NCBI GenBank assembly: GCA_013002305.1
Contig: JABDKG010000099.1
Location: 1-64,000 of the forward strand
Direction of reading: 5' to 3'
Length of the DNA: 64,000 bases
Origin: Hellea sp.
Lineage (GTDB): Bacteria; Pseudomonadota; Alphaproteobacteria; Caulobacterales; Maricaulaceae
Each line of letters begins with the position of its first letter. Position 1 is the first letter of the stretch. Of the stretch, positions 7,387-35,198 are shown piece by piece. The position numbers were made by a program, and so were the translations under genes. A model generated the notes under the pieces. That model made no database searches. It was not told the DNA's origin and saw only the letters and a list, made by a program, of their open reading frames with translations.

Positions 7387-7473
7387 GCCCTGGTGGCGGA
7401 ATTGGTAGACGCGCTAGCTTCAGGTGCTAGTTTCTGTATGGAAGTGGAAGTTCGAGTCTTCTCCAGGGCACCA
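7387..7473 (+). tRNA. tRNA-Leu (anticodon CAG)
   Basis: An 87-base class II tRNA with acceptor stem GCCCTGG / CCAGGGC, D-arm with GGCGGAATTGGTAGACGC, anticodon stem CTAGC / GCTAG closing the loop TTCAGGT (anticodon CAG at 7421-7423), a long variable arm, T-loop TTCGAGT and encoded CCA at 7471-7473. The direct repeat that bounds the following 8.9-kb segment begins in its last bases. Confidence 0.97.
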
Positions 7474-7505
7474 AACCACCGTTTTACTCCATCCGATATA
7501 GTCCA
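7468..7505 (+). repeat. Left copy of a 38-bp direct repeat (putative attachment site)
   Basis: This segment starts in the last two acceptor bases of tRNA-Leu and continues past its CCA. It matches 16387-16424 at 33 of 38 positions without gaps and in the same orientation; mismatches are at 7471, 7475, 7480, 7490 and 7491. The longest shared block is TCCGATATAGTCCA. The position at a tRNA 3' end is typical for a site-specific recombinase target. Confidence 0.6.
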
Positions 7506-7528
7506 AAAACCCTTGTAATATATGGGTT
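7505..7528 (-). terminator. Weak possible terminator of the giant surface-protein gene
   Basis: On the minus strand AACCC pairs with GGGTT across an 11-base loop and is followed by a short T run. The stem is short and the T run brief. It is placed about 55 bases beyond the giant gene's stop codon. Confidence 0.3.
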
Positions 7529-7583
7529 GATTATGACTTTCGTCTAAAAACATCCAATTGTGTGACGGTCGATCCCGCGCGAT

Positions 7584-10500
7584 TTATTCAATCGGGAAGT
7601 AGATCCCGACCTTACCGCCATAGGCCTCATAATTAGTAGCACCGATGCCGTCGTAGAATCCAACAAATGTCAAACGCGTGTCTCCTCCAAATCCGAATGT
7701 TAGGCCCGACTCCGCTCTGGCGCGAAGTTTGTCGGTTCCGGTGGCCAGACCTGTATTGAGGTTAAGGATATCAGCTTGCTGGAAATCCCAAATGCCGCGC
7801 AGTCCAAAGTTTGGTGTTATCGATGTGGTCCCACCTTGTCTGAATGTCTTGCTAAAGCGTGGTCCAAATGTCATTCGCCCGAGACTAATTGTTTGCTCAG
7901 GGATCATGATATTGAGCGAGTCCACATAAGCTTTTTGGTCCTCTTCAAAATAGATTACTGAAAGGTTTGGATTAAAGCGCCAGTCATCAAGCATAAAGTC
8001 ACCCGTGAACTGCCCTTTGAGCAACCAGCGATTGGTTTTGAAATTATCTGTGTAGGTTTGGAATGGGCTGACATCATTGCTCGATTTGCCCCAGGCTGCA
8101 CGTCCATCAAATATCAATTTGTCGGATAGTCGTGTCACCATATAAGGGCCAACCATCCAGCCACTGCCGGATATCTCAAAGTTTTGAGTTCTATCTTCTT
8201 CTTCGGCCCAGTCATATTGACCCATAATTCCGATAATGGTGTTATCACCCACTCGGTAATCTATACCGGCATAGATCAGGGCTAGATCATTGTCAGTGGT
8301 GTCCTGGTGCAGGCTGACGAGGCTGGCCTCAGTCCAGAGATTTATCTTGGCTGCCCTATCCGCTCCGAAGATTCCGGCCAGATTGGCATCTTCGCCGCTT
8401 AGGCTTCCGTTAAAGGCGAGACGGGTTGTATGCCGCTCGGCATGGCCATTTAATCTGCCGTCGGATCCTTCATTGAGGAACCTATCTGAAAGGTCAGGAT
8501 CATTGAGCGTTATTTGATCAGCGCGGCGCACGAGGAAGTTGTTAATAATTCCCATTGTTCGGGTGCGAACAAAGTCTTCATCAATATACTCAGTGGAAAC
8601 TGGGTCTCCTGCGGTGTTGCCATTGCCAGCCGCGTCTTGGGCTGCGTCTGCGGGCACTTCTATTGTTACCGTTCCGTGCGCTGTTGGCGTGATTGTGACC
8701 ATATAAACGCTCGGACTAACGGAAACGAGGTTTGACGCACTTCCATTATCGATAACGAGGTCTGATGCTGTAAATCCGGTGACGTCTTCGTTAAATGTCA
8801 CCGTAATTACAAACGGACCTCTAACATCTGCTGGCAGGGCAGCTATAGCAACGCTTGGTGAAGTGGCGTCAAAGGTTGTTGTGGCTTGTGCTGCAGCCGT
8901 ATTATCATTGCCGACATTGTCTTGCGCGACTGCCGCTGGGACATCAATTGTCACGGTTCCATCAGCTGAGGGTGTTATCAAGGCAGTATAAACAGCGCCG
9001 CTTCCGGCGAAATCAGAAGCCGTTGCATTGCCGAGGACTATATCTCCCAGCACAAATCCTGTGACATCTTCGGAGAAGGTGAATGTTGCCGTGAATGCAG
9101 AATTTGACGTATCCGGTACCCCGGAAATCACAACGGTTGGCGCCATATTTTCAAGGATTTCAATATCGACAGTGTCAGCTACCGAGTCCACCTGCCCATC
9201 GTTGACAATGAGCGAAAACGTCAGCGTCGTTGTGGCCGTTAGTGCAGGTGCAGTAAATGTAGGGCTGTTTGACGCAGAGCTTGAAAGCGTGACCGATGGA
9301 CCGCTGGTTTGGGTCCAGGCAAATGTCAGGCTATCCCCGTCCGGGTCCGAAGACCCTGTACCGTCAAGCGTGACAATCGTTGCGTCTATTATACCAGTTT
9401 GATCGATTCCGGCGTCCGCGACGGGAGCCTCGTTGACGTTATTGACGGTAATATCAACCGTGTCGGTTACAGAATCGAGAGTGCCATCATTGACGATGAG
9501 AGAGAATGTTAGAACTTCCGGTGTGTTGGACGTCAATGTCAATGCGGTAAATGTCGGGCCGACCGCCGTAGCATCAGAGAGCAGAACTGCCGTTCCGCTC
9601 GTTTGTGTCCAGGCATAGGTCAAGGCATCACCATCCGGGTCAGAAGATGCGCTGCCATCGAGCGTAACCATCGTGGCTTCAATTACACTTGGTTGGTCTG
9701 GGCCGGCATCAGCGAGCGGCGTCTCATTGATATTCGTGACAACCACATCGACGGTATCGGCAACAGAATCGACCGTGCCATCATTGACAATCAAGCTGAA
9801 GGTTAATGTTTCGGCGATATTGGTTGCCAGAGTTGGAGCGGTGAAAGTCGGACTGGATGCGGATGCATCAGATAGTATCACCGACGTACCCGAAGTTTGT
9901 GTCCAGGCATAGGTCAGGCTGTCTCCATCAGGATCAGACGATCCGCTGCCATCCAATGTAACAGAACTGGCTTCCAATACTGGATCCTGATCGGGCCCTG
10001 CGTCAGCAAGCGGAGTTTCATTGACATTGTTGATGGTCACATCAACCGTATCCGCCACTGAATCGATGATACCGTCATTGACAATCAGGCTAAAGGTCAG
10101 GGTTTCCGGCGTGTTGCTGGACAGCGTAGGCGCCGTGAATGTTGGACCGGCGGCTGTTGTATCGGACAGTGTTACGGTTGTGCCGACAGTCTGAGTCCAG
10201 GCATAGGTCAAGGCATCACCATCCGGGTCAGAAGATGCGCTGCCATCGAGCGTAATGACTGTTGCTTCGGAAGCAGATGGTTGATCTGGGCCGGCATCAG
10301 CGAGCGGCGTCTCATTAACATTGTTGATTGTGATGTCGACGGTATCAGCGGGCGAATCCAAAGTTCCATCATTAACGACTAAAGAGAATGTCAGGGTTTC
10401 AGGCGTGTTTGTCCCGAGTGTTGGCGTCGTGAATGTTGGGCTGGCGGCGGTTGAGCTTGAAAGCGTAACAGTGGTGCCGCCCGATTGAATCCAAGCGTAA

Positions 10501-13500
10501 GTGAGGCCATCTCCATCCGGATCGGAAGATCCAGATCCGTCAAGTGTTGCTACCGTCGCTTCCAAGACGGCGGGTTGATCGGCGCCAGCATCTGCGACCG
10601 GTACCTCGTTGACATTGTTGATCGTGATATCGACTGTATCGGCAACAGAGTCTACGAACCCGTCATTTACAATCAAACTAAATGTCAATGTTTCAGGTGT
10701 GTTCGAAGATAATGTCGGTGCTGTGAAGGAGGGGCCCTCAGCAGTGGCGCTCGATAGCATGACGGGGGTCCCCGCGGCTTGGCTCCAGCCATAGGTTAGT
10801 CCGTCTCCATCCGGGTCTGAAGACCCGCTGCCATCAAGTGTTACGAGCGTTGATTCCGTAACTGAACCTTGATCTGGGCCCGCATCGGCCAATGGAAGTT
10901 CGTTAATATTACCAATGACGACATTAACCGTGTCGGCGACTGAGTCTACTGTTCCGTCGTTCACGATAAGGCTGAAGGTTAGAGTCTCAGGCGCATTGCT
11001 GGACAATGACGGGGCGGTGAATGTCGGGCCAACAGCGGTGGAGCTTGAAAGCGTAACAGCTGCGCCCGCGGTCTGAGACCAGGCGTATGTCAGACCATCT
11101 CCGTCAGGATCAGATGATCCGCTGCCATCCAGGGTCACGAGCGTGGCTTCAACGACAGAGGGCTGGTCAGGGCCGGCGACCGAGATCGGCGCCTCGTTGA
11201 TGTTATTGATGGTGATATCGACAGTGTCAGAAACCGAGTCTACGGCACCATCGTTCACGATCAAGCTAAAGGTCAGTACTTCTGGTGTATTGCTGGCGAG
11301 CACAGGGGCGGTAAAGGTCGGACCGACTGCTGTTGTGCTGGACAGCGTAACCGTCGTACCTGCAGTTTGGCTCCAAGCATAAGTTAGACTATCCATATCG
11401 CCATCGGATGAACCGCTGCCATCCAAAGTGATCAAAGTTGCTTCGACTGCAGAAGGTTGATCGGGGCCGGCATCTGCCACTGGAATTTCGTTGACGCTAG
11501 TCACTTCAGTGTCAGAGTTGAATCCAGGAACATTATCAATCGCGTCGCTTGCTACAGACACACTCGCCGTTAGATCTGCTGTCGTGGCAGCATTTACGGA
11601 TACCGTGACATTAAAAGATGCATTTCCACTGGCGCTGATGGTTCCTAGAGAACAGGCCGGAATTCCACTGGGATCTGCCGCACATCCGGATGTTGAAACA
11701 AAGGTGACACCCGCTGGCAGCGTAAATGTTGCAATTGTGTTTGTGGCGGGACTAGGGCCGGCATTGGTCACGAGAGACGTATAGGTAACATTCGATCCTG
11801 CCGTAACCGGGTCGACGCTATCCGTCATAGTAACCGAAAGATCAGCTTCCGCGGATATAACTGTATCGGCGTCAGTTGCGGAGTTGTTTCCGGAGGCCGG
11901 ATCTGTATTCGAGCCTGAAATTGTCGCTGTATTTGACAGGGTTCCGGTCGCCGTAGGACCTACCGCACATATAGCGCTGTAAGTGGCCGTAGAACCAGAT
12001 GGCATGTTCAATGTTTCAGAAATGTCGCCTGAGCCAGAAAATGAAATGCCTGAAGCTCCGCCGGTTGTAGATGAGGTGTGCGTACAGGTTAGGTCACTCG
12101 GGAAATTGTCAGTGACCAAAGCCGCTGTTTCCGTGGATGGCCCCGCATTCGAAGCGACAATAGTATAGGTGATATTGGAACCCTGCGCCGCGCTTGTCAC
12201 GCCATCTGTTTTGGTGATGGACAAATCAGATTCAGGCGACAGCACGGTATCGCTGTCTGTGGCGCTATTATTGCCGGGCACTGTATCTGTTATTGAACTG
12301 GTTGCAGATGCTGTGTTCGACAAAGTACCTGTCGCGTCCGCATCAATTGCGCAGATTGCCGTATAGGTGGCCGAAGAACCAGAGGGCATGGACAGTGTCT
12401 CAGAAATATCGCCCGAACCAGAAGCCGTGTTGCCTGTCAAACCACCGGCTGCAACCGAGGTATAAGTACAGGTCAAATCTGCCGGAAAAGTATCTGTCAA
12501 TGTTACAGACGGGTCAGCTGAGGGACCGGCATTCGCCGCAACGATAGTGTAGGTCAAAGAACTACCTGGTGCAGCGCTTGTCACACCATCAGTCTTGGTC
12601 ACGGAGATATCAACCTCTTCAATACCGGTACCGCTTAGCGCTATGTCATACGGAGACTCATCAGAGTCATCGCTGAGCACGTCGATATCAAATGAGAACG
12701 CCCCGGCCGCTTGCGGAGTATAGGTTACTGTAAAAGTTGCGGTGCCACCGCTTGCGGCGACTGTGGCCGAACTATAGTTCCCGGGTGTAGGCATGCCGAC
12801 ATTGACACCGCCTGATAGGCTGGGGCCAGCATTGGTTAAATTAAGGGCCGCGCCGCCAGTATTTGTGATCGTGTAGGTCACGACTTTGGCAGTACCAACA
12901 ACTTCATTGCCCTGCGCATCGGTTCCGCCATCGGCGACAGCGCCGCTTTCAGACGATGAAATTTCAATTTCCGGCGCTTGGATATCAAGTGAATCGGTAG
13001 CGGGCGCTGCGACAACGGAAGTTCCAGAGGTCAAATCGCTGGTTGTATTTGAGTTGCTTGACCCGGGCATCGCTCCAGCAGGAACCTGAAGCGTTACAGA
13101 AAATGTGCAATCGCCACCGATGTTCAGGTTGCCTCCGGTGAAAGACAGGTTGCTCGTGCCGCTCAAGCTGGAACCGGATCCACATATATCATTGGCAGGT
13201 AAGCCGGTTGCGACCAAACCAGAAAGCGTCGCGTCTAAATCATCGGTGAACCTCATATCAGTGAGGCCGCCGGTTCCGGTGTTTGCAATCGAAAATTCTA
13301 AGTTCACTGTACCGCCAGGAACTGCCGGGTCATTGGTGAAGGATTTCGTAAATGTTGCGGACCCGTCCGAAACCACGAGATCAGCATTTGCGCCGGCTAT
13401 AGAAGAGGCGACGCCGCCCATGGTCGCGTAAACATCGCTGGTTGAATTTGAATAAGTCGCGGCGGCTGCAGCGGCTGGAATGCTAACTGCTACGCTGAAT

Positions 13501-16238
13501 GTACAGTTATCATTGGCAGCTACGCTTGCCCCGGAAAGGGAAATCGTCGATGTACCGGATAAAGTTCCACCGCAAGCTGCCACGGGCAGGCCTGTTGCAA
13601 CTGTGCCTGTTAACATGGCGTCCAAATCATCAGTGAAACTAATCACTGTTGCACCGTTGACGGTGTTGTCGTTGGCAAGTGTGAACTCCAGATTGACGGA
13701 TTGGCCAGGCTCAACAGGATCATTTGTGAATTCCTTAGTTAGGCTTAGATCAAAGGCCGCAGATCTGACCTCCAACGTATCGGTAGCGGGGGCAAGGATC
13801 CCGGCGCTGGTGATCAAATCGCTTGTTACATTACGGTAAATTCCGGGAGAGCTCGAAACTGGCACGGTTGTCACAACTTCAATAATGCAGGAAGAATTTG
13901 CAGGCAAAGTTCCGCCAATATAAGTGAGGAACGTAGTTCCGCTCATAGTGCCTCCGCATGTGTTCGTAACTGGGGGTAGAGTGGCCGTAAGTCCGGGTAA
14001 ACTTGCGGCAAGGTTGTCGGTAAAAAAGGTAATCGATTCGACCGACGTGCCGGCATTGTCGATGGTGAACCGAAGATTTGTAGTGTCGCCTTGAGCCACG
14101 GGATTGGTCAAAAACTCCTTTGTAAAGGTTATGTCGCTGCTAACAATCAGATCCGCAGTGGCTGGGCTGGCTGTAAATCCGACGCCGCCGGCAGTGCCGG
14201 TTAAATTGCTGGTCGTATTTGTATAGCTGCCACCGCCCGCTGCAGGAGGAACAGTTGTCGAAACTTCAATCGAACAAGTGCCAGTTGCGGTCACAGTGCC
14301 GCCGGTAAACATGATACTAGTCGTACCAACCCCGGTAACCGTGCCGCCGCAACTGTTACTGGTCAAGCTGGCATAGGTAAGGCCCGTTAAAGCCGCGTTG
14401 AGATCATCTGTGAAAGCGAGGGCAGTGGCATCGACCGTAGATTCCGCTGAGCTTGTAATCGTAAATACCAGCGTCGCAGCGTCACCGGGATCCACCGGAT
14501 CGTCCGTGAACTCTTTTGCCAGCGTGACTGTCGCTCCGCCATTGACGACAAGCGTATCGCTGGCCGGTGGGCCCGTTACCGCTGCGCCTGCGAACGTTCC
14601 GGTTATGTCGCTAGTTGTGTTGGGATAAGACCCACCCGGGAAACCGGCCGGAATATCGACGCCAAAATTAAAGGTGCAAGATCCGGAGGCGGGTAGGTTG
14701 CCGCCTGACATCGATAAAGCTTGACCAAAACTGGTAGACACAATTGCAAATGTGGAGCCAGCACCGCAAGATCCCGCCGCGGGTAAAGTTGAAGATATGG
14801 GAGACGGCAGGAACGTCGTCAGTTCGTCAATAAATGTCAGATCGGTCACCGCGCCTGCCGCATTTGGATTCATTACCGTAAATTCCAGATCGACCGTGTC
14901 GCCCGATCCGATGGGATCGTTTGTAAATGACATAGAAAGCTGGGGCTGAGCCGCTTCAATAAAGAGCGTGTCAGTCGCGGCAGCGCCAACACTTGGGCTG
15001 CCGCCAATTGTGGCTGTGATCGAACTTGTTGTATTCGGGTAAGACCCTGTCGCTGCAGTGCCTGGAACTGTGAGGCTTGTGACAATTGTACAAGAGCCCT
15101 CGGGCGCGATTGTGCCGCCGGAAAAACTAATAGATGTTGTTCCGACCCCGGCTACAGAACCACCACAATCATTTGATGTCAGGCTTGTATAGGTTAGGCC
15201 CGTCAGAGTTGCGGCTAAATTATTTGTAAAGGCTACAGCCGTCGCCACGCCGGTGCGATTTGTGTTCTGAATTGTGAACTCAAGCTCAACTGTAGCGCCC
15301 GGCAGAACAGGATCACCGTTAAATGTTTTGTTGAGTTGAAGCGCGGTCGCTGTTACAGCCAAGGTCGCTGACGCTGCGCCCGCTGAAACAAAATCTGACA
15401 GCAAATTGCCTGAAATATTGTTGAGCATGCCTACACCCGTCGCTGTTACGTTCACGGAAACGGTGCAAGCCGCGCCGGCTGACAAAACCTCAGCGCCCGG
15501 AAATAAAGTGCTACCGTTTGCATCCAAGGCCATGGATGTTGCGCCGGCAACGGCGGTCAAAGTTGTATCGTTAATTAAGGCACTGACACAGTCAGTGTTG
15601 GCGTTAGGCGGAGACGCTATTTCCATTCCAGTTGGAAAATTATCCGTAAAATCCAAATTACCAATGACAGCTGTATTAGATGTATTATCGATCGTAAACG
15701 TCAAAGTGGATGTTCCGCCAAGGCTGGTAGAACTTGGCGAAAACGACTTGGTGAAACCAGGGAGGGTGGAGACAACCATCAAATCGTCTGTAGCCGTTCC
15801 GCTATTGCCTTCAGACGAGGTCAGGTCGCCGGATACGTTCATGTGGGTACCGACTGTTGATGACGTCACGTCAACGGAAACTGTACAAAACGCGCCCGAT
15901 CCAATACTGCCATCAGCAAATGTAACGGTTCCGCCGCCATTGGGCGCGGTAAGGGTGCCTGCCACACAATCATGAGAAGCATTAGAGGGAGTTGCGATGG
16001 TTAAACCAACGGGCAACACATCGGTAAAAGCCATATCGGTTACCGGAACAGCATTTCCGGTACTATCAATCGTAAAGGTGAGGGTGGTGGTGCCGCCTGG
16101 TCCTATAGTATCCGGTGAAAAAGTTTTGGAAAAAGTTGGCGGAGCGGCAAGGGCCAATCCCGAAACTGATAGCGTTGCCAATACCCAACAAACAATTGAA
16201 TATCCAACTCGAAAAACATTTTTACGTCTAATCCCCAT
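7584..16238 (-). CDS. Giant repeat-rich surface protein with C-terminal beta-barrel
   Basis: A 2884-residue exported protein, likely displayed on the cell surface. After a signal peptide (ending SGLALA) come, roughly by residue: 29-1083, eight ~130-residue modules beginning like FTNDPVxPGxxVxLEFTI and each holding a conserved Cys pair (CGG...CxI); 1083-1206, one domain resembling HYDIN/choice-of-anchor beta-sandwiches; 1206-1583, three DUF11-type modules (TKTDGVTSAAPGSSLTYTIV); 1583-2363, eight 98-residue PKD/REJ-like modules (ADAGPDQ, then SGSSDPDGDxLTYAW); 2363-2553, two bacterial Ig-like modules (FSEDVTGF); 2553-2884, an autotransporter-like barrel. It ends in IYFPIE rather than with the usual terminal aromatic residue. 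ATG 16238 is preferred over 16286 because AAGGGG lies eight bases upstream and the signal peptide starts there. Adhesion is the likely role, inferred from architecture only. It is the only gene between the two direct repeats. Confidence 0.85.
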   Translation of the reverse strand: MGIRRKNVFRVGYSIVCWVLATLSVSGLALAAPPTFSKTFSPDTIGPGGTTTLTFTIDSTGNAVPVTDMAFTDVLPVGLTIATPSNASHDCVAGTLTAPNGGGTVTFADGSIGSGAFCTVSVDVTSSTVGTHMNVSGDLTSSEGNSGTATDDLMVVSTLPGFTKSFSPSSTSLGGTSTLTFTIDNTSNTAVIGNLDFTDNFPTGMEIASPPNANTDCVSALINDTTLTAVAGATSMALDANGSTLFPGAEVLSAGAACTVSVNVTATGVGMLNNISGNLLSDFVSAGAASATLAVTATALQLNKTFNGDPVLPGATVELEFTIQNTNRTGVATAVAFTNNLAATLTGLTYTSLTSNDCGGSVAGVGTTSISFSGGTIAPEGSCTIVTSLTVPGTAATGSYPNTTSSITATIGGSPSVGAAATDTLFIEAAQPQLSMSFTNDPIGSGDTVDLEFTVMNPNAAGAVTDLTFIDELTTFLPSPISSTLPAAGSCGAGSTFAIVSTSFGQALSMSGGNLPASGSCTFNFGVDIPAGFPGGSYPNTTSDITGTFAGAAVTGPPASDTLVVNGGATVTLAKEFTDDPVDPGDAATLVFTITSSAESTVDATALAFTDDLNAALTGLTYASLTSNSCGGTVTGVGTTSIMFTGGTVTATGTCSIEVSTTVPPAAGGGSYTNTTSNLTGTAGGVGFTASPATADLIVSSDITFTKEFLTNPVAQGDTTNLRFTIDNAGTSVESITFFTDNLAASLPGLTATLPPVTNTCGGTMSGTTFLTYIGGTLPANSSCIIEVVTTVPVSSSPGIYRNVTSDLITSAGILAPATDTLEVRSAAFDLSLTKEFTNDPVEPGQSVNLEFTLANDNTVNGATVISFTDDLDAMLTGTVATGLPVAACGGTLSGTSTISLSGASVAANDNCTFSVAVSIPAAAAAATYSNSTSDVYATMGGVASSIAGANADLVVSDGSATFTKSFTNDPAVPGGTVNLEFSIANTGTGGLTDMRFTDDLDATLSGLVATGLPANDICGSGSSLSGTSNLSFTGGNLNIGGDCTFSVTLQVPAGAMPGSSNSNTTSDLTSGTSVVAAPATDSLDIQAPEIEISSSESGAVADGGTDAQGNEVVGTAKVVTYTITNTGGAALNLTNAGPSLSGGVNVGMPTPGNYSSATVAASGGTATFTVTYTPQAAGAFSFDIDVLSDDSDESPYDIALSGTGIEEVDISVTKTDGVTSAAPGSSLTYTIVAANAGPSADPSVTLTDTFPADLTCTYTSVAAGGLTGNTASGSGDISETLSMPSGSSATYTAICAIDADATGTLSNTASATSSITDTVPGNNSATDSDTVLSPESDLSITKTDGVTSAAQGSNITYTIVASNAGPSTETAALVTDNFPSDLTCTHTSSTTGGASGISFSGSGDISETLNMPSGSTATYSAICAVGPTATGTLSNTATISGSNTDPASGNNSATDADTVISAEADLSVTMTDSVDPVTAGSNVTYTSLVTNAGPSPATNTIATFTLPAGVTFVSTSGCAADPSGIPACSLGTISASGNASFNVTVSVNAATTADLTASVSVASDAIDNVPGFNSDTEVTSVNEIPVADAGPDQPSAVEATLITLDGSGSSDGDMDSLTYAWSQTAGTTVTLSSTTAVGPTFTAPVLASNTPEVLTFSLIVNDGAVDSVSDTVDITINNINEAPISVAGPDQPSVVEATLVTLDGSGSSDPDGDGLTYAWSQTAGAAVTLSSSTAVGPTFTAPSLSSNAPETLTFSLIVNDGTVDSVADTVNVVIGNINELPLADAGPDQGSVTESTLVTLDGSGSSDPDGDGLTYGWSQAAGTPVMLSSATAEGPSFTAPTLSSNTPETLTFSLIVNDGFVDSVADTVDITINNVNEVPVADAGADQPAVLEATVATLDGSGSSDPDGDGLTYAWIQSGGTTVTLSSSTAASPTFTTPTLGTNTPETLTFSLVVNDGTLDSPADTVDITINNVNETPLADAGPDQPSASEATVITLDGSASSDPDGDALTYAWTQTVGTTVTLSDTTAAGPTFTAPTLSSNTPETLTFSLIVNDGIIDSVADTVDVTINNVNETPLADAGPDQDPVLEASSVTLDGSGSSDPDGDSLTYAWTQTSGTSVILSDASASSPTFTAPTLATNIAETLTFSLIVNDGTVDSVADTVDVVVTNINETPLADAGPDQPSVIEATMVTLDGSASSDPDGDALTYAWTQTSGTAVLLSDATAVGPTFTALTLTSNTPEVLTFSLIVNDGTLDSVTDTVDITVNNVNEAPVADAGIDQTGIIDATIVTLDGTGSSDPDGDSLTFAWTQTSGPSVTLSSSASNSPTFTAPALTATTTLTFSLIVNDGQVDSVADTVDIEILENMAPTVVISGVPDTSNSAFTATFTFSEDVTGFVLGDIVLGNATASDFAGSGAVYTALITPSADGTVTIDVPAAVAQDNVGNDNTAAAQATTTFDATSPSVAIAALPADVRGPFVITVTFNEDVTGFTASDLVIDNGSASNLVSVSPSVYMVTITPTAHGTVTIEVPADAAQDAAGNGNTAGDPVSTEYIDEDFVRTRTMGIINNFLVRRADQITLNDPDLSDRFLNEGSDGRLNGHAERHTTRLAFNGSLSGEDANLAGIFGADRAAKINLWTEASLVSLHQDTTDNDLALIYAGIDYRVGDNTIIGIMGQYDWAEEEDRTQNFEISGSGWMVGPYMVTRLSDKLIFDGRAAWGKSSNDVSPFQTYTDNFKTNRWLLKGQFTGDFMLDDWRFNPNLSVIYFEEDQKAYVDSLNIMIPEQTISLGRMTFGPRFSKTFRQGGTTSITPNFGLRGIWDFQQADILNLNTGLATGTDKLRARAESGLTFGFGGDTRLTFVGFYDGIGATNYEAYGGKVGIYFPIE
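9150..11490 (-). repeat. Eight tandem 294-bp units encoding PKD/REJ-like modules
   Basis: Coding repeats with a 294-base (98-codon) period inside the giant gene. Each unit encodes ADAGPDQ, a VTLDGSGSSDPDGD turn that may bind calcium, LTYAW, PTFTAP and SLIVNDG. Units differ by many substitutions, but 9607-9667 and 10195-10255 are identical over 61 bases at exactly two periods apart. Confidence 0.9.
12990..16150 (-). repeat. Eight diverged ~130-residue N-terminal modules of the giant protein
   Basis: Degenerate coding repeats recognisable in translation: an opening of the type KEFTNDPV, a Gly-rich turn, LEFTI, a TDDL motif, a CGG cysteine and a second cysteine in the SCTI context. They are too diverged to be obvious at the DNA level. 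Confidence 0.75.
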
Positions 16239-16546
16239 TACTCGGCCCCTTAATGTAGAGTTGTTAAATGTTGAATTTCTTGGCAACTCCTATCATCCAT
16301 ATCACAACGAAATCGCACAGTGTGCAAGTAAAAACTAACGAAAATTTGCCGTGGCTCTTAAACAACTTTCGGGCGGATACGTTCCAGCATCAAGCCACAG
16401 TTTTACTCAGTCCGATATAGTCCATGGGTTTATGGGCAAAGAAAAAGGATTATCATTTAGAATTTATCCAGCGATTAGCCCAGTGCGTGAAAGAGTGCAA
16501 CGAAACCGGCTCCATAAGTTTAAACAGAGAGAAAATTCCTTATAAT
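16239..16546. other. Intergenic segment holding the giant gene's promoter side and the right direct repeat
   Basis: About 300 bases without a supported gene. A 64-codon open frame at 16351-16545 has no ribosome site or plausible composition. The segment contains the right copy of the tRNA-adjacent direct repeat and must hold the giant gene's promoter, but I see no convincing -35/-10 pair. Confidence 0.6.
16387..16424 (+). repeat. Right copy of the 38-bp direct repeat (putative attachment site)
   Basis: Same orientation as 7468-7505 and 33/38 identical, 8919 bases further on. It marks the far end of the segment that carries only the giant surface-protein gene, just before the remnant genes at 16.5-17.7 kb. 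Confidence 0.6.
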
Positions 16547-17395
16547 TTATGGAGCCGACGATCTTGACGCTGCTCTTATCATCAGGGCGCTGATGCCGCC
16601 GATAATCAAGGCAAGAGCGGCGATGGCTATTCTGCCACCGACTGGATTGGGTATGATCAGCATAAAACCGATAAAGGTAGCGATGGCGAGGCCGAACCGG
16701 CCGATGGTTTTGAGCTGGGCCAGATCATTGCCGGCGCCGATCTCGGCTTTGAAATCAATCGGCGTTTTCATCTCGGTAATGAACTTATCGACCATGGTCC
16801 GGTGTGTTGAGCCCTTGGCCGGAGCGAACGGAATGGATATCAGAAAGCCCAGCGACCCGGCGGTCAGTACGCCGAAAAACTTGGCTTGGAACGTCCATGT
16901 CGCATCGGGTGAAAACCCGAAGGTTGATAGCGGCACGTTCAGAAACGCCAGAAGCGCAACCAAGAGGCCGCAACTGATTGAGAGCAGCGCCGCCCATGAC
17001 GGGGTCCTGCGGATGAACAGCCCCCACATCAGAGGGATCTGGATCGGCGACATCAAGAGCGCGCCAACATCGAGCATGATCTCGAAAATACCTTTGCCCT
17101 TTTGCTGCGCCAGATAAAGCGCCAAAAATATGATGATGACCCCCATCAGCCAAGTGTAAATCCGGCCGTAGCGCAAAAGCTCGGTTTCGGATTTTAATTG
17201 CCACTGAAACCGCTTTTGGAGCTTGGGATAAATATCCTTGATCAGAATAGCGACATTGGTGTTCAGCCCCGTATCCATCGAGCTCATCGTCGCGGTCAGG
17301 ATCGCGACCACGATTAGACCAATCAGCCCGACCGGCAGCAATTTGATACTGGCAATGGCGTAGGCCGTTTCGGCCGGTTTACTGATCCCGAAATA
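16547..17395 (-). pseudogene. 5'-truncated sodium:solute symporter (SSS family) remnant
   Basis: C-terminal half of an SSS-family sodium/substrate symporter (about 280 codons; intact members are roughly 500-600). The frame reads in through ISKPAETAYAIASIKLLPVG and has the family hallmark ILTATMSSMDTGLNTN, followed by several hydrophobic segments. It runs upstream without a start codon into the kduD remnant at about 17391-17402, so the first half is lost. A TTG at 17341 gives an open frame but is internal by comparison with the family. The substrate was probably a sugar acid, judging from the uronate genes beside it. Confidence 0.8.
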
Positions 17396-17730
17396 TCGCT
17401 TCTATGCTGACCTTTCAAGGCGGCGTGCGCGTCCCGGCCTATACGGCGTCCAAAAGCGGCGTTGGCGGGCTGACCAAAGCGCTCGCCAATGAATGGGCGG
17501 GACATGGCATAAATGTCAACGCCATCGCGCCTGGCTATTTTGCGACAAATAACACGGCAGCTTTACAAGCTGACGCGAAACGCAATGCAGAAATCTTAAG
17601 CCGTATTCCAAGCGGCCGTTGGGGTCAGCCAGCAGATTTGGCCGGCGCCGCCGTCTTCCTCGCGTCAAGCGCATCGAATTACGTCCACGGCATTACTCTG
17701 CCCGTTGATGGCGGCTGGCTCGCGCGGTAA
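17392..17730 (+). pseudogene. kduD: 5'-truncated kduD (2-dehydro-3-deoxy-D-gluconate 5-dehydrogenase, SDR) remnant
   Basis: C-terminal ~112 codons of a KduD-type short-chain dehydrogenase (intact ~250 residues). Readable from NIASMLTFQGGVRVPAYTAS with the catalytic YxxxK (YTASK), then NVNAIAPGYFATNN, GRWGQPADLAG and the closing DGGWLAR typical of KduD. The NAD-binding half is absent; the frame begins inside the join with the symporter remnant on the opposite strand. In an intact locus KduD would interconvert diketo-uronate and KDG. ATG 17404 is the methionine of the conserved IASMLTFQGG segment, not a true start. Confidence 0.8.
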
Positions 17731-17759: not shown

Positions 17760-19043
17760 TTAAGCTGGCGTCGTTTTCGCAGTGATCTCCTGCCATACGC
17801 CTGTCACGCCAAGGTATGACGTGAAGAGAGAAAACAGCAAAATCGCCGCTAGAAAGACATTGGCAAGCCAGGTATTTCTATAATTACCCATTAAATCTTG
17901 GCGATTGGTCAGGTAAAAAATACAACCTACAGTGACAGGCAAAATGATGGCATTGAAGGCTTGGGACATAATCATTACGGCGACGGGCCTGGCCTCGAAC
18001 AAAGGTACGACTAAGCCCAGCAATGATATCAGAAAAACCATAATCCGGTATTTTGGCAGCGTCATATTGCGATCTGTTTCGGTGTAATCGCAAATTAGCC
18101 AGGGCAGCATCAGCACGTTCGGAAATTGCGACGAGACGCCGGCCGCGATGATCCCAACAGCAAATATTGACACGGCCAGAGGACCGGCCAGTGGTTTTAG
18201 AAGTTCGATCATTTGTGAGGCTTTTTCGAGTCCGATATTTCCGGCATGAAGCGTGCCTGCCGCTGCCGCCATGACGGCGGCGCTAATGACGAACATTAAG
18301 ACAACTGCAAATATTGCGTCTCTTCTTTGGGTTTTTGCATCTTCTAAGGTCCAGCCGGCTTCTTTGACCAATGTCGTTCGGATGATGAAAAGGCCGGAAA
18401 ATACTGTGGTTCCGACCATAGAGGCTATAACCAATAGAGGTCCTTTCTCTGAACCCGATGGAACTTCCGGAATGCTTGGGACAAATCCTTTTATGATATC
18501 GATTGGCGGCGGCATCATTATGAAAAAGTTGATCAAAAAGCTCGCCGCCATTACGGCGACAATTACCGCCAGACTGCGTTCGAAAAATTGAGTATTGCCG
18601 TTCCAGAAAATGAAAAAGACCAGAGCGGAAAAGAACGAGGCAAAATATATCGGTGCTATGCCGCCTTCGATCATCGTTTTTGACCATTCCGAGCTGATCT
18701 CCGCGACGATGCCCATGACGCCCATGACGCTGCCGCAGACGCCCAGTGTTAAAGCGATGATAAAATAAATACCGACGGCCGGGTGGATATGTTTTTTAAA
18801 GGCCTGAAGTGCGGTTTCGCCGGTCACCAATGTGTAGCGGCCATAAAGATTGATCATGAAAAAAGTACATAAGCAGGACGCCGCAAGCGCCCAAAGCAAT
18901 GTCATCCCGTAATCGGCGCCGCCTTTCGCCATGGCCGTAATGCTGCCGGTTCCGATATTGAAACCCAGCAGGAAAATTCCAGGCAAAAACAAAGCCAGCA
19001 ATGCCGCAAATTTTTGTCCGATGGTAAGTTTTGTATCTGTCAT
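17760..19043 (-). CDS. Nramp-related transporter without canonical metal ligands
   Basis: Integral membrane protein of 427 residues with the Nramp (NRAMP/MntH) fold pattern: about eleven hydrophobic segments, with TM1 readable as LPGIFLLGFNIGTGS followed by GGADYGMTLLW. True Nramp metal transporters carry DPGN in TM1 and an A-x-x-MPH motif in TM6. Aligning on the shared GxxxGxxLLW spacing, DPGN is replaced by GTGS, and the TM6 region reads AAGVSSQFPNVLML, with no Met-Pro-His. It is therefore unlikely to be an ordinary Mn/Fe importer. It lies 13 bases after uxuA in the same operon, so a role in uronate or sugar-acid uptake, or supply of the UxuA metal by another mechanism, is inferred. Confidence 0.75.
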   Translation of the reverse strand: MTDTKLTIGQKFAALLALFLPGIFLLGFNIGTGSITAMAKGGADYGMTLLWALAASCLCTFFMINLYGRYTLVTGETALQAFKKHIHPAVGIYFIIALTLGVCGSVMGVMGIVAEISSEWSKTMIEGGIAPIYFASFFSALVFFIFWNGNTQFFERSLAVIVAVMAASFLINFFIMMPPPIDIIKGFVPSIPEVPSGSEKGPLLVIASMVGTTVFSGLFIIRTTLVKEAGWTLEDAKTQRRDAIFAVVLMFVISAAVMAAAAGTLHAGNIGLEKASQMIELLKPLAGPLAVSIFAVGIIAAGVSSQFPNVLMLPWLICDYTETDRNMTLPKYRIMVFLISLLGLVVPLFEARPVAVMIMSQAFNAIILPVTVGCIFYLTNRQDLMGNYRNTWLANVFLAAILLFSLFTSYLGVTGVWQEITAKTTPA

Positions 19044-19056
19044 GATTTACCTGTGC

Positions 19057-20250
19057 CTAAGCGGATAGCGCCCGGATGACCCCGCGGACCTCGGCGAGCC
19101 CTTTGAGGCGCCCGATTGTCGAATAGCCCGGATTTACGGTTTTTCCGATATCGTCCATCATTTGAAAGCCGTGATCCGGGCGAATGAATATTTCTTGCTG
19201 CGCCGATTCCTCGCGCCTGCGCCGAGTCTCTTCGGCAAGCAGTTCTTTGATAACCGCCACCATGTCGATGTCGCTATCCAGGTGACTGGCCTCATAAAAA
19301 GAACGCTGTTCTCCCGGATCCCGACTTACACCCCGAAGGTGCGAAAAATGAATTCGCGGACCAAATTGCCGGGCCATGGCCGGAAGGTCATTATCAGGAC
19401 GGCTGCTATAAGTACCCACACATAAAGTGATACCGTTGGCAGGGCTCGGCTGGGCCTTAAATAAAATTTCCAGATCGTCGGCCGTGCAAATAATACGGGG
19501 CAGTCCCAGCATATCGCGCGGCGGGTCGTCGGGGTGAATGGCTAGATTGACGCCGGCTGCTTCGGCGCGCGGCAAAACCACGGACAAGAATGCAAATAGA
19601 TTTGCCCGTAAAGCATCGGCGCTCACGTCTTGGTAATTGGCCAGCATGGCGCGAAAATCATCCAAGCCGTAACTTTCGGTCATCTTGCCCGGCAAACCAG
19701 CGATGATATTGTTGGTGAGCTCGGCGCGCTCGGCCTCAGACATGCTTTCGAATATTTGCTTGGCTTCATAAATTTCCTCGGCGCTATAGTCAGCCGCCGC
19801 ATTCTCGCGCTTCAGAATGAACAGATCAAATGCGGCAAATCTGTTCTGGTCAAAGCGCAGCGTGTAGGCGCCGCCGGGTAATTTATGTTTGAGATCGGTG
19901 CGGGTCCAATCAATCACCGGCATGAAATTATAACAGATGGTTTTAATGCCGCACTTTGCGAGATTTTCCATCGATAGAGCCCAGTTCTCGACATATTTCT
20001 CATGGCCGTGCCGGGCCAGCTTAATATTCTCATGAACGGGTATGCTTTCGACGACCGTCCATTTGAGCTGTGTGAGGCTGCTATCGCCGTCTTCTATAAG
20101 CGCTTGATGCTCTTTAATGGCTTCAAGCGGCCAGACTTCGCCAGCAGGAATTGCGTGAAGCGCGCTGACAATATCCGTAGCCCCGGTTTGCCGAATGTCG
20201 TCGATGGTTACAGGGTCGCTCGGACCGAACCATCTCCAGGATTCACGCAT
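19057..20250 (-). CDS. uxuA: Mannonate dehydratase
   Basis: Converts D-mannonate to 2-keto-3-deoxy-D-gluconate (KDG) in the cytoplasm, the last step of the glucuronate branch. The 397-residue protein matches the UxuA family in length and begins MRESWRWFGPSDPV. Metal and active-site positions are visible as HPDDPPRDMLGLPRI, the cysteine in ITLCVGTYSS, the histidines in IHFSHLRGVSRD and the aspartate in RPDHG. It is the first gene of an operon with the Nramp-like transporter. A promoter with TTGACG and a 17-base spacer lies upstream and an ATTGGT-N3-ACCAAT palindrome overlaps its -35, suggesting repression by the GntR protein at 27.3 kb. Confidence 0.95.
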   Translation of the reverse strand: MRESWRWFGPSDPVTIDDIRQTGATDIVSALHAIPAGEVWPLEAIKEHQALIEDGDSSLTQLKWTVVESIPVHENIKLARHGHEKYVENWALSMENLAKCGIKTICYNFMPVIDWTRTDLKHKLPGGAYTLRFDQNRFAAFDLFILKRENAAADYSAEEIYEAKQIFESMSEAERAELTNNIIAGLPGKMTESYGLDDFRAMLANYQDVSADALRANLFAFLSVVLPRAEAAGVNLAIHPDDPPRDMLGLPRIICTADDLEILFKAQPSPANGITLCVGTYSSRPDNDLPAMARQFGPRIHFSHLRGVSRDPGEQRSFYEASHLDSDIDMVAVIKELLAEETRRRREESAQQEIFIRPDHGFQMMDDIGKTVNPGYSTIGRLKGLAEVRGVIRALSA

Positions 20251-20295
20251 AATACCCCTATACCCTTCCGAATTGCCGTTAGTGGCTGTGTGATT

Positions 20296-20324
20296 TTATT
20301 GTCACATTTCAAATAAATCGTCAA
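20296..20324 (-). promoter_or_regulatory. Likely promoter of uxuA
   Basis: On the minus strand TTGACG (20324-20319), a 17-base spacer and CAATAA (20301-20296) form a sigma-70-type promoter about 45 bases before the uxuA start. The -35 element overlaps the first two bases of the palindromic operator. Confidence 0.5.
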
Positions 20325-20339
20325 TTGGTAATACCAATT
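20323..20339. promoter_or_regulatory. GntR/UxuR-type operator between uxuA and TonB receptor 1
   Basis: Perfect palindrome AATTGGTA-A-TACCAATT with core ATTGGT-N3-ACCAAT, which fits the T-GT-N3-AC-A pattern of FadR-subfamily GntR regulators and resembles the UxuR/ExuR operator. It sits between divergent genes and could control both directions. Confidence 0.7.
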
Positions 20340-20451
20340 AATGCAAATCGGTATAATAATAGGTTGACAATAAGTAATGTATTGGTTCATTGAAGCTCGC
20401 AAAGTTAACACCAATCCAATTAAACCAGTAATTCTAAGGGGAATTCAGGAC

Positions 20452-23400
20452 ATGTCTCAGATTAATTCAGACGTCAGCAATGGCAGAACTTATACAAAAT
20501 CGTGGTTAAAAGGATCGCTCCTGTTAGGTGCCAGCCTTTCAATGTTAGCGACTGCCACGCCAGCGTTTGCTCAGGATGCTCCGGGCGAAGACGAAATTAT
20601 TGTCACCGGTATCCGCGCTTCACTTGAAAACGCGCTTGTCGAGCAACGCGAAGCGGTCGGCCTGACAGAAGTTATTCTTTCTGAGGATATTGGTAAGCTG
20701 CCAGACCAAAACCTCGCTGAAGTTCTGGAGAACATTACAGGTATTCAAATTACGCGTACCGCCGGTGTCGGTACGGGCGTTCAAATTCGCGGTACAAATT
20801 CAAACCGGACCGAGATTAATGGTGTCTCCACGGTCGGTGCAGGCTCTGGTCGTAGTGGCATTAGTTTTGAAGATGTCTCTGCTGGCATTATTGCTGGCGT
20901 TGAGGTTATCAAGTCTCCGGACGCGCAAACAATTGAGGGATCTGTTGGTGGTACGGTTAATTTACGGACGATCCGTCCGCTAGATCTAACCGAAACCCTC
21001 GCGACTGTGCGTTTGCAAGGGGAAAACAGTAGTCTTTCAAGCGAAGGCGGCTGGACACCTAGGGGTTCTGCAACACTCGGAAACAAGTGGGAAAATGCCA
21101 AGGGGCAAGAAATCGGTGCGGTGATCAGTATGAGTTATACGGAGCAAGAGGCCTCCGCATATCGTCCTCGGATAGACCGTGACGGTAGCCTTGTCGAAAA
21201 TCGCAACGTGAACATGGTCGATGGTGCCCGCGAAAATGCAGTGGATCGTCCGGCGGCTCAGGATTTTGACTTTTTAGGTATTCAGTTCTTGAACCAAGAG
21301 TTTGAAAACTTTGAGTATGACACTCTTAATATAGCGGCCAGTGTTGAGGCGCGCCCAAGTGACAATGTGAAACTGTATTTTGACGCGATCTATAATGATC
21401 AAGAGCGCCGTCAAGACAGCACGAGAGTCCAGGCGTCTGGTGTTTCCAGTCACCCGATACTAAACACCAATTTGCCGTCGCAATTTGAAACGGTCAATTT
21501 TGGTTCAATCGGCGGCACGCAAATCGGGAGTATTCAGGCGGCCGTCGTCGGTACAATTCAACCAAATTTCATTGGCACGCCGAATGTTGGTGGTGATGAT
21601 GATGATCCGAATTTGCGTTTTAATAGTGATACCGGTGCACGTGTCACCCAAAGCAATTTGTTCAGATTGGGCTCAGAGTGGGAAAAGGGAAGAGTTTTTG
21701 CCCGTGTGGAGGCGTCGTCGTCAACATCTGACTCTGAAACACCGACTTTGAGCACGCAGCTTAACTTCATAAACCCTAATCCTCTGACGCCCCTTGATGG
21801 CACAAGCAATGATAATTCTGTGCCATTCAGATATAATTTGACGGGCGGCGCCCTAACATTTGGCATCGATTTTGACTCAATTTATGCGCCGAATGTTGCA
21901 GATTTAACCAAGGCTGAAAATGTCGTCTTGGATCAGGTGGATCTAAGTAATAACTTTAATGTGAACTCTGAATCCGCACTTCGGGCAGACTTTTCTATTG
22001 ATTTAGAAGACAGTTTCTTAGGTGAAGTTCCGCTTACATCTTTTGATTTTGGTATTCGGCACAATAAAACCCAAAGTACCTTTAATCGCGTAAATGAACG
22101 CATTGGCGGCTTTAGCCGAATGGTCAACAGTCCAAACGGATCCCTGTTTTCTGAGCTACTTGTTGCCGGTCCAAATAATTTTGGTGAGTCAGATGGTAGA
22201 GAGCTTGCATTCCGTAATTTCATTATCGTCGACCCTGATCGCGCTTTTAATGATCCGTTGGGTACACTGGCTATTTTGGAAGCCGCGCTTGCAGCACACG
22301 ATCCGAATTACACTCCGGTTGATTTTGCCCCGGATGAGGAAGCTTTCTTTGATATTGAAGAGAAAACCAACGCCTTGTATGCGCAAGCCAATTTCGAATC
22401 TGGCATGTTCCGCGGTAACGTAGGTGTGCGTTACGTCGAAACCGACATTGCTTCGACGGGTAACACAATTATTAACGGTGTGGCCTCGCCTGTGGTAACG
22501 GAAGGGACTTATAACTTTGTCCTTCCACGTGCCAATTTGGTTGTTAGCCCAACGGACGACGTACAGCTGCGCTTTGGCTGGGGTAAAGATGTCAGAAGGC
22601 CGGATTTCAATGATTTGAACACATCCATAGCCTTCAGCACTAATTCCAACTCAGTTGTGAATATCGGCAACCCAAGCTTAGAGCCTGAAGAAGTCAACTC
22701 GTTTGATGTTGCTGGCGAGTGGTATTTCGCGCCGGCTGCAGTCGTCCGGGTTGGTTATTTCAATAAAAAGCGGACTAATATTATTGGTGATGTGTTTACA
22801 GACGCGGGAACGGATGCAAATGGGTTTCTCAGTGAAGATCCTTCCTGTCCGCTCGGGGGTTACTACAACCCGATTGCCGAAGGCCGCGGATTTATTGCGC
22901 GCCAAGGCGCCGTGGGCTTGTGTACTGGGTTTAATACGGGCGTAAATGATCCGGACACCACTACTCAGCAAGGTATTGAAGCGTCATTCCAATATGATCT
23001 ATCTAATCTCGAGGATGAGCTTGGTAGTATGGCCTGGGCGTCAGGTTTTGGTGTGCTAGCGAACTATACCCATCAAACCTTTAAGGGCGGTTCCATTACT
23101 GACACTGTTTCTTCAAACCGCGGTATCGATGTTTTCAACGCGATTAACGGCAATTATGATAGAAGTACATTTACTTCAGTTTCTCAGCCGCGCGGGCTTC
23201 TTGACTTCTCAGAGGACGCTTACAATGTCACAGCATTCTACGAGAAATATGGTTTTTCAGCGAGAGCACGCTACACATGGCGTGACGCTTTTAAGACTTT
23301 AGACACAGCGGCGGGTGCCAGCCTGAACAGTACTTTGGGTTTCCCGGTTGTCACATCGGCCAGAGGACAGCTTAATGCGGGCATCAATTATGATGTAACG

Positions 23401-23541
23401 GATAATTTCAACATTGGTGTTGAGGGTGTAAACCTCACTAAGTCTGGTATTAAGCAGTGGTGTGTTAATGATGGCGCTCTACTTTGTGCCCAGGGTATTC
23501 CGGATCGTCGTATTGTCGCCGGTGCCAGCTACAAGTTCTAG
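20452..23541 (+). CDS. TonB-dependent receptor 1 (oligouronate uptake, inferred)
   Basis: Outer-membrane TonB-dependent receptor, 1029 residues. Signal peptide ending in TPAFAQDA, TonB box-like DEIIVTGIR, plug domain (LPDQNLAEVLENITGIQIT; VEVIKSPDAQTIEGSVGGTV), then a long beta-barrel ending with the expected terminal phenylalanine (SYKF). The start at ATG 20452 is chosen over 20377 because the signal peptide begins there and AGGGGA precedes it. Placement next to uxuA, the second receptor and alginate lyases implies import of alginate or uronate oligomers; ligand choice is inference. There is no SusD partner. A TTGACA (20364-20369) may be its -35 element. A terminator follows. Confidence 0.92.
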   Translation: MSQINSDVSNGRTYTKSWLKGSLLLGASLSMLATATPAFAQDAPGEDEIIVTGIRASLENALVEQREAVGLTEVILSEDIGKLPDQNLAEVLENITGIQITRTAGVGTGVQIRGTNSNRTEINGVSTVGAGSGRSGISFEDVSAGIIAGVEVIKSPDAQTIEGSVGGTVNLRTIRPLDLTETLATVRLQGENSSLSSEGGWTPRGSATLGNKWENAKGQEIGAVISMSYTEQEASAYRPRIDRDGSLVENRNVNMVDGARENAVDRPAAQDFDFLGIQFLNQEFENFEYDTLNIAASVEARPSDNVKLYFDAIYNDQERRQDSTRVQASGVSSHPILNTNLPSQFETVNFGSIGGTQIGSIQAAVVGTIQPNFIGTPNVGGDDDDPNLRFNSDTGARVTQSNLFRLGSEWEKGRVFARVEASSSTSDSETPTLSTQLNFINPNPLTPLDGTSNDNSVPFRYNLTGGALTFGIDFDSIYAPNVADLTKAENVVLDQVDLSNNFNVNSESALRADFSIDLEDSFLGEVPLTSFDFGIRHNKTQSTFNRVNERIGGFSRMVNSPNGSLFSELLVAGPNNFGESDGRELAFRNFIIVDPDRAFNDPLGTLAILEAALAAHDPNYTPVDFAPDEEAFFDIEEKTNALYAQANFESGMFRGNVGVRYVETDIASTGNTIINGVASPVVTEGTYNFVLPRANLVVSPTDDVQLRFGWGKDVRRPDFNDLNTSIAFSTNSNSVVNIGNPSLEPEEVNSFDVAGEWYFAPAAVVRVGYFNKKRTNIIGDVFTDAGTDANGFLSEDPSCPLGGYYNPIAEGRGFIARQGAVGLCTGFNTGVNDPDTTTQQGIEASFQYDLSNLEDELGSMAWASGFGVLANYTHQTFKGGSITDTVSSNRGIDVFNAINGNYDRSTFTSVSQPRGLLDFSEDAYNVTAFYEKYGFSARARYTWRDAFKTLDTAAGASLNSTLGFPVVTSARGQLNAGINYDVTDNFNIGVEGVNLTKSGIKQWCVNDGALLCAQGIPDRRIVAGASYKF

Positions 23542-23580
23542 GAAATAGCTCGTAATACTCTTTGCGACTAAAAAACAGAA

Positions 23581-23608
23581 AACGCCTCACATTTGTGGGG
23601 CGTTTTTT
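23581..23608 (+). terminator. Terminator after TonB receptor 1
   Basis: An 11-base stem (AACGCCTCACA / TGTGGGGCGTT, one G-T wobble) with a tight loop is followed by a run of T, 40 bases after the stop codon. Confidence 0.9.
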
Positions 23609-23747
23609 ATTATCTGCCATGATCATGACGGTATTGCGGGTTGCGATTCGCAATCGGCCTTAGTCTAAGTGCATCATTCAAGTAGCATTGGCTCTTTCCT
23701 CGTTCTGATAGTGTGTTGGTTATACAACAGAAAAAAGAAAAAACGAC

Positions 23748-23762
23748 ATTGGTCCTACCAAT
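23748..23762. promoter_or_regulatory. GntR/UxuR-type operator before TonB receptor 2
   Basis: Perfect ATTGGT-CCT-ACCAAT, the same half-sites and spacing as at 20323-20339, 103 bases before the start of receptor 2 and 27 bases before a TTGACA element. Confidence 0.7.
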
Positions 23763-23864
23763 TATGCTGGATCGGTCCGCTTAAGAGGTTGACAAAGAAT
23801 AAATATGTAGTTTTGTTAGTTCCGATATTTATTCAATAACATCATAATCTCGGGGAGATACTTA

Positions 23865-26800: not shown

Positions 26801-27146
26801 TCAGGGAATAATTGCCCCGGGCGGACTGCCGGGATTGTCCGAGCACACCTTCACAGCTCAGGCTTACTATCAAATCGATGATTTTGATTTTGGCATAAAC
26901 TACAAATATCGCGACGATTATTTCCAGCCATTCACATCTGACGGTACACGGCTTAGATTTATCGGCGATGTTGGTGTCTGGGAAGCGCGCGCTGCATATA
27001 AGATAAACGATAACTTCCGCCTATCTGCTGAAGCTATTAACCTCTTTAGCGCCCCTAAAGAGCAGTATGCATTTGTCAGAGATGATCTTTATGAAGTCAA
27101 TGATTACGGCCCACGTATATTCGTTGGACTTCGCGGAAGGTTCTAA
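23865..27146 (+). CDS. TonB-dependent receptor 2 (oligouronate uptake, inferred)
   Basis: Outer-membrane TonB-dependent receptor of 1093 residues, a distant relative of receptor 1. Signal peptide ending SQVALAQGAD, TonB box-like DEIVVLGTR, plug (LSIGEALETITGVASH; EVSVRGLGPYLSSTVVNGR; FKTQDASQVEGGVAGQI), then the barrel ending in phenylalanine (GLRGRF). GGGGAG lies eight bases before the start. It is flanked by its own upstream operator and a terminator, and is followed by the GntR gene. Having two different receptors may cover oligomers of different size or composition. Confidence 0.92.
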   Translation: MPISSPKSAHIKSVRSLLLAGASLSILSVSQVALAQGADPTAVSEDEIVVLGTRQVIQDSIALKRGNTQIVDGLSADEIGDIPALSIGEALETITGVASHRENGGATEVSVRGLGPYLSSTVVNGRAATNGSGDRSVNFSQFPSELMNKLEVFKTQDASQVEGGVAGQINMETIKPLDYGKQRAQFEIKGNVNPDQLDQKDTEAGDLGYRFTASYTDQFEAGTGDMGFSIGVQRSDISQPEAESRQTGPTSNSRPACLITNGNPNYIEPETGGTVTGFSNQPETARRGDDDCDDVNLEGFNGDLTNFGRGSSVEGVDTSLVNGQPVDAGVPFVFAPSQRHFRQNDTRDQRDAIFGAFQWQPHDRLDINLDAQWSERLQSERRNDLTFNGGRRNDTSLNIGTGIDVTTLDTLEYTPSGAILYQITDSTIEVQGGDWQREENYLGGGLNVEYDVSDKLTVAADFGYSKTKRTEDAVEFRIQSNISPVIVFDRRNNNVPTYSLYDEEFDVNNHDNYVDRLRVRIDNDRLRENTIKAARFDVDYDLGTGFFTNLEAGVRWADQDYLELPGGVDSGDPFNITSGRFSFEIEDNTDLNINNRQVVDGSGSATTGLASNWVDIIASTNQACRTQFPEGNSFLSSQRNGNLVTNYTDDGTVLSSTNSWATFDATCMANTAVSSLNAILAEINLAIVDRGDVDGMLTAFNAGIPGLSEINSRTIDVQEVTTAFYAMTGYETTLSDLPLSGNIGVRLVQTEVDATGYRPELMITDTAGVLSGSFGNLQPVTASHSYTELLPSANAILELSENKLIRLGVFRALSRADPADMGYGRTISLEDDDDLEPATLDELIENISAAGNPELDPLTSWNFDAGFEWYPNPDSILAIGAYYKSFQGGFENVRQNETFVIDGQNFEFPVSVQQTNNDTSSLFGIEFTGSHSFSYLPGLLSGLGAKVSYNYVDSNFEFEDSRYGNAYTRQLDGSIIQTNQGIIAPGGLPGLSEHTFTAQAYYQIDDFDFGINYKYRDDYFQPFTSDGTRLRFIGDVGVWEARAAYKINDNFRLSAEAINLFSAPKEQYAFVRDDLYEVNDYGPRIFVGLRGRF

Positions 27147-27173
27147 AATCTAAGTTTTAACGTCCTTAAAAGG

Positions 27174-27212
27174 CACGGCTTTCATTTATTTGAAAGTTGT
27201 GCTTTTTTTTTG
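27174..27212 (+). terminator. Terminator after TonB receptor 2
   Basis: A 12-base stem (GCACGGCTTTCA / TGAAAGTTGTGC with two G-T pairs), six-base loop and nine T residues, 27 bases after the stop codon. Confidence 0.9.
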
Positions 27213-27219
27213 CTTTAAA

Positions 27220-27256
27220 TTGGTCTAGACTTTGAAGGAATTTTTGATTTATTGGT
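27220..27256. promoter_or_regulatory. Two operator half-sites before the GntR gene
   Basis: ATTGGT occurs at 27220-27225 and 27251-27256, each followed by a poor second half. They resemble half-sites of the local palindrome and could allow weak autoregulation. Confidence 0.35.
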
Positions 27257-27268
27257 ATAGGGAAATTA

Positions 27269-28015: not shown

Positions 28016-28023
28016 GCATCTAT

Positions 28024-28084
28024 ACCAATATTTTTAAATTGGTTTAATATATTGGTTGACACAACGGCCTAAATTGCTGATATT
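28024..28084 (+). promoter_or_regulatory. Promoter and operator half-sites of the alginate lyase operon
   Basis: TTGACA (28056-28061), a 17-base spacer and GATATT (28079-28084) form a plausible promoter. Immediately upstream are ACCAAT (28024-28029), ATTGGT (28038-28043) and ATTGGT (28051-28056); the last overlaps the -35 element. None forms the perfect palindrome seen before the receptors. Confidence 0.5.
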
Positions 28085-28172
28085 TTCCTCCGCTTAAAAA
28101 GATAAAAAATTTGAATGGGCGGGGCGCATAAAAGACTTTTAGTGCCCGTCAAATGACAAGGGATCGGAATAA

Positions 28173-32602: not shown

Positions 32603-32604
32603 AC

Positions 32605-34271: not shown

Positions 34272-34304
34272 ACAGAAATTTAGACTGAAAAAGGAGTCAT
34301 AATA

Positions 34305-35186: not shown

Positions 35187-35198
35187 CAGGACCAAGAC

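Follow-up and report, generated by a model that had tools for sequence, protein, structure and literature searches.

A direct repeat starting in tRNA-Leu(CAG) and a giant autotransporter gene in Hellea sp.: a probable tandem of decayed P4-type islands

In the 64,000-nt stretch of Hellea sp. DNA analyzed here (contig JABDKG010000099.1; hereafter, the window), two copies of a 38-bp direct repeat, the first of which starts in the last bases of tRNA-Leu(CAG), bracket one giant gene. A sequence-only reading had seen in this pair the footprint of a tyrosine integrase without the integrase itself, which raises the question of what kind of element, if any, brought the gene there and what became of its recombinase. 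We consider it probable that two P4-type islands were inserted in tandem at this tRNA and that their integrases decayed, leaving att-flanked cargo behind (table 1).

The repeat pair and the gene between its copies

When recomputed, the repeat came out as that reading had described it: the copies at 7468-7505 and 16387-16424 lie in the same orientation with 33/38 identities and start in the last bases of the tRNA (7387-7473). A gapped alignment lengthens them to 7462-7505 and 16383-16424, with a 2-nt gap. A chance repeat is ruled out, since this identity exceeds the best of ~490 control 38-nt positions, whose best partners within 12 kb reached at most 32/38 and mostly 20-23. A common genomic repeat, the case that the sequence-only reading had named against itself, is ruled out as well: in a BLAST search of the whole genome, the right copy was recovered as a match for the left one (E=1e-6), and no further copy was found beyond these two.

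The survey of genes and Pfam domains likewise agreed that the interval holds only the predicted repeat protein of ~2884 residues, the 2884-codon gene being the only gene between the two copies. Its product has a signal-peptide-like start, 8 DUF7933, 8 PKD, and 3 DUF11 stretches, and a C-terminal autotransporter barrel. The proposed comparison of codon use at 7584-16238 with the flanks revealed no foreign signature, and this normal codon use neither helps nor hurts the island reading. At the two loci examined elsewhere, no relative of the giant gene was found beside an att site. In G002 and G006, Ig/PKD-domain proteins are encoded directly behind tRNA-Leu and read towards it, and in G004 a related one is encoded two genes further from tRNA-Leu (loci L064 15099-15920, L067 363-1457, and L184 1541-3920); all fall far short of the giant protein in size and have no such barrel.

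Table 1. Features of the tRNA-Leu(CAG) region, with positions in the window
Feature	Position	Strand	Evidence or content
tRNA-Leu(CAG), putative integration target	7387..7473	+	ARAGORN and Rfam
Putative att core 1 (left copy)	7468..7505	+	33/38 direct repeat; match to att-core profile of relatives
Relic of integrase-proximal att arm, without integrase	7482..7583	+	Profile of 13 intact att arms
Giant autotransporter gene, 2884 aa	7584..16238	-	Pfam, translation
Putative att core 2 (right copy)	16387..16424	+	tRNA tail 2 nt shorter; weak second-ranked profile match
Probable P4-type integrase relic, arm-binding domain, ~31 codons	16429..16521	+	Six-frame profile, tblastn
SSF symporter fragment, C-terminal part	16547..17341	-	Pfam SSF positions 289-404 only
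SDR fragment, C-terminal part	17404..17730	+	Pfam adh_short_C2 positions 141-235 only
Alginate utilization locus, presumed distal-island cargo	17760..39240	.	Pfam; absent at site in congeners. Nramp, UxuA, two TonB receptors, GntR, cupin, MFS, PL6-like and PL17-like lyases, dehydrogenases, PfkB, KDPG aldolase
tad pilus cluster, congener synteny resumes	40853..48364	+	

Relatives with intact integrases

The DNA right of the tRNA can be assigned to an integrase family. Indeed, a profile of 13 intact att arms, from which this genome had been left out, matches the window at 7482-7582 (E=7e-11), and the left arm is still matched (E=1e-9) by a profile derived solely from elements with a target other than Leu(CAG), while the reversed window gave nothing of note. 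This match identifies the DNA right of the tRNA as a relic integrase-proximal att arm, at the expected place and on the expected strand. The stop codon of the giant gene begins at 7584, within 2 nt of the arm, so that this gene now ends where the integrase should lie. An att-core profile drawn from relatives also matches 7461-7508 (E=1.1e-7). The right copy is the second-best window match of the 13-arm profile, with an E-value of 0.1 that is weak alone.

An illustration of what may have stood here is provided by G031: behind the same tRNA lie related sequence, arm sites of the form GGGGGTA, and a P4-type integrase that is intact, with Arm-DNA-bind_3, Phage_int_M, and Phage_integrase domains. 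A family search returned 29 related integrases in 27 genomes, 20 of them directly behind a tRNA (12 behind Leu(CAG), the other targets being Thr, Phe, Gly, or other Leu tRNAs), and most of these tRNA-adjacent loci share the layout CCA–N17–GTCCGATAWAGTCC–…–GTGGGGGTATATCC–int. In four intact islands (G100, G105, G148, and G154), an att-R lies 4.7-13.3 kb away, and its tRNA tail has lost 1-2 nt from the GGG that precedes the discriminator, like the right copy of the window; the pattern used to detect this was written with that copy in mind. No convincing second copy was found in the DNA searched for G031, G082, G083, and G145, whose integrases are intact. The att pair of G100 is only 80% identical although its integrase is intact, so the divergence of the arms does not prove age; the earlier suggestion of an old, immobilized island is supported, and the islands are presumably immobile at present.

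Among the intact islands that relatives have at this tRNA-Leu, some include defence genes: those of G100 and G148 have type III restriction genes, and DarT/DarG lies beside the att-R of G148 (loci L147 4640-11227 and L156 4505-9052). At L114 and L118, only the 3' half of a tRNA, starting near the anticodon, precedes the integrase, the arrangement that the second member of a tandem should show.

With regard to the core itself, a scan of the genome collection found it downstream of tRNAs in several lineages of Proteobacteria; an integrase is present in some of these stretches and absent from others, and some of the matches in coding DNA are due to chance. The core GTCCGATAWAGTCC follows Leu, Thr, and Arg tRNAs across these lineages, and Aquitalea offers a pair of such sites: the core follows an intact tRNA-Arg in one species, and in another the tRNA is truncated and leads into the same chromosomal sequence downstream, which reads as an empty site and an att-R. 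On this basis, the core is part of attB, which explains why the repeat lies mostly beyond the CCA. Because the core extends far beyond the tRNA and is retained whether the site is empty, occupied, or decayed, CCA-N17-GTCCGATAWAGTCC could also be a standing docking site at which integrase-less cargo, here the 8.7-kb adhesin gene, is exchanged in trans, a reading that we regard as distinctly unlikely.

The same comparisons bear on the idea that no integrase was involved, the tRNA 3' end and the sequence downstream having been duplicated locally and the giant gene having arrived otherwise. That only the last tRNA bases are duplicated and that the giant gene has no foreign codon signature would fit such a duplication; against it, the similarity of the left segment to integrase att arms spans 100 nt, and the same motif is found with an integrase behind different tRNAs in other Proteobacteria, which leaves it highly improbable.

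The right copy and the region beyond it

At the right copy, only the last ~12 tRNA bases are recognizable, with a 2-nt deletion. Five bases further right, on the same strand, a candidate integrase relic follows (16429-16521): nine different integrases among the ten best tblastn matches obtained with the integrases of relatives point to it, and it is the best match in the window of a six-frame integrase profile (11.0 bits, E=0.017), when the reversed window reached 6.4 bits at best. The encoded peptide, FMGKEKGLSFRIYPAISPVRERVQRNRLHK, retains the GKEK-LSF-YP-S-R pattern of the arm-binding domain. Pfam did not call an integrase on this peptide, and a piece so short cannot be called by Pfam alone. 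A search of 136 other genomes of the family returned no match to the surroundings of the right copy. The absence of an integrase between the copies, as first described, was confirmed, the only trace being this probable relic of ~31 codons past the right one.

The position of the candidate relic suggests that it belonged to a second island, and core 2 would then likely mark where two tandem islands meet, serving as attR for the proximal one and as attL for the distal one, rather than being a plain att-R; integrase-like codons 5 bp past an internal core are what would mark a second element, and they are weak evidence alone. The rival is a single 8.9-kb P4-type island with the two copies as attL and attR, in which case the DNA right of 16424 would be resident chromosome and the integrase-like peptide a product of chance. 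Its length falls within the 4.7-13.3 kb range of the controls, and in G100, with its intact integrase, ordinary chromosome follows the att-R. Yet the best integrase match of the window lies 5 bp past the right copy and on the right strand, and the alginate locus, too, is an addition relative to the congeners, for which reasons we judge a single island unlikely.

The tandem that we favor would have arisen from two elements with P4-type (Arm-DNA-bind_3) tyrosine integrases, which target the 3' ends of tRNA genes, the repeats being their att cores. Both would have been inserted at tRNA-Leu(CAG), the later one, presumably the proximal element, next to the tRNA, giving the order tRNA - [core 1, relic arm, giant gene] - [core 2, integrase relic, alginate locus] - tad chromosome. 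The proximal island (8.9 kb) would carry the giant autotransporter gene as its sole cargo and the distal, older one (~23 kb) the alginate genes as its presumed cargo, which starts ~26 nt past the probable relic; both integrases would have decayed, leaving att-flanked cargo without its own recombinase, in a CIME-like pair. Counting against this model are the 11 bits of the relic, the E=0.1 of the right core, the lack of a third core, the loss of a backbone gene described below, and a genome assembly that is split into 102 contigs.

The same site in congeners is consistent with accretion. In five of them, ccmF adjoins tRNA-Leu(CAG). The empty site that the sequence-only reading had suggested looking for exists in G009, where a gene of 176 aa starts 47 nt past tRNA-Leu and is followed by two MscS-like genes (named by eye), two more genes, and the tad pilus cluster. 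The 176-aa gene and the MscS-like pair are also present in G001, G002, and G007, with differing genes between them and tRNA-Leu, so that the site is empty or otherwise occupied in relatives, as tandem accretion predicts. With the homology of the left arm, the att-R of relatives, and the lack of further copies in the genome, this empty site bears out the proposed footprint of a tyrosine integrase. Repeats of the same kind were absent from the tRNA-Leu junction of five congeners.

In the window, ~33 kb separate tRNA-Leu from the tad cluster, consisting mainly of the giant gene and the alginate locus. The latter is absent from the tRNA-Leu site in congeners, only 2/9 of which have a PL17-like alginate lyase gene, and no tRNA was found at the alginate loci examined. 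Two broken genes had been placed at the right end of the insertion as a sign of a rearrangement hotspot. Both exist, as SSF and SDR fragments whose truncated 5' ends face each other at 17341/17404. The repeat is not at this break, which lies ~0.9 kb further right and is a distinct event, a deletion inside the alginate locus.

Neither a third att core where the alginate locus ends nor the right end of the distal island was found. A weak profile match at 40794-40822 was rejected as a third core, as it lies in the tad promoter region, and the upstream part of that region is conserved in G007. This genome lacks the 176-aa gene of the common backbone, which makes the right boundary a backbone replacement, not a clean insertion, and the lack of a far end together with the missing backbone genes indicates that the distal boundary has changed since insertion. 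At 39256-40544, a gene shared with the tRNA-Leu locus of G007 and a DUF4412 gene stand in place of the MscS-like pair of congeners.

Relation to known island types

P4-type tRNA islands are a known kind, of which the present case is unusually readable. The islands of G031, G100, G105, G148, and G154 have the same tRNA and att layout; they keep an integrase, whereas the pair in the window has none, and the cargo of G100 and G148 includes defence genes when that of the proximal island is an adhesin. A CIME retains attL and attR after loss of the integration and transfer genes, derives from an ICE or IME, and can be mobilized in cis after accretion of a functional element (PMC5704250). In the window, both cores are present with no integrase or transfer gene between them, and, as in CIMEs and tandem accretion (PMC5704250), an att-flanked segment without integration genes adjoins a second element at the same tRNA; in contrast to the ICE/IME origin of CIMEs, no conjugation or transfer gene, nor a relic of one, is seen. 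The structure is therefore best called a tandem of CIME-like decayed islands. As in Islander-type tRNA islands, the intact tRNA at one end has its counterpart at the other in a displaced 3' tRNA fragment of the same orientation, with a small deletion near the discriminator of the kind that the Islander authors note in displaced fragments (PMC4383910). Islander requires an integrase gene inside the island (PMC4383910); none lies in the present one, and this loss would lead the algorithm to reject it.

What is unusual is that one giant adhesin gene is the only cargo and that the att arm remains recognizable without its integrase. Through its integrase-proximal att arm, an integrase-less island can thus still be recognized and oriented, and the motif of such arms offers a way to find islands that integrase-based island finders miss. 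In this alphaproteobacterium, the acquisition of a giant surface adhesin, and probably that of alginate degradation as well, is tied to one tRNA hotspot, which in related genomes holds defence systems, other genes, or nothing.

As for a possible source of recombinase, no P4-type integrase was found in the assembly (102 contigs, ~97% complete). The genome encodes three tyrosine recombinases, none matching the P4-type integrase, and two of them look, by inspection, like XerC and XerD. The third, of 476 aa (L211 583-2013), adjoins tRNA-Val and tRNA-Asp, and its locus is possibly another island.
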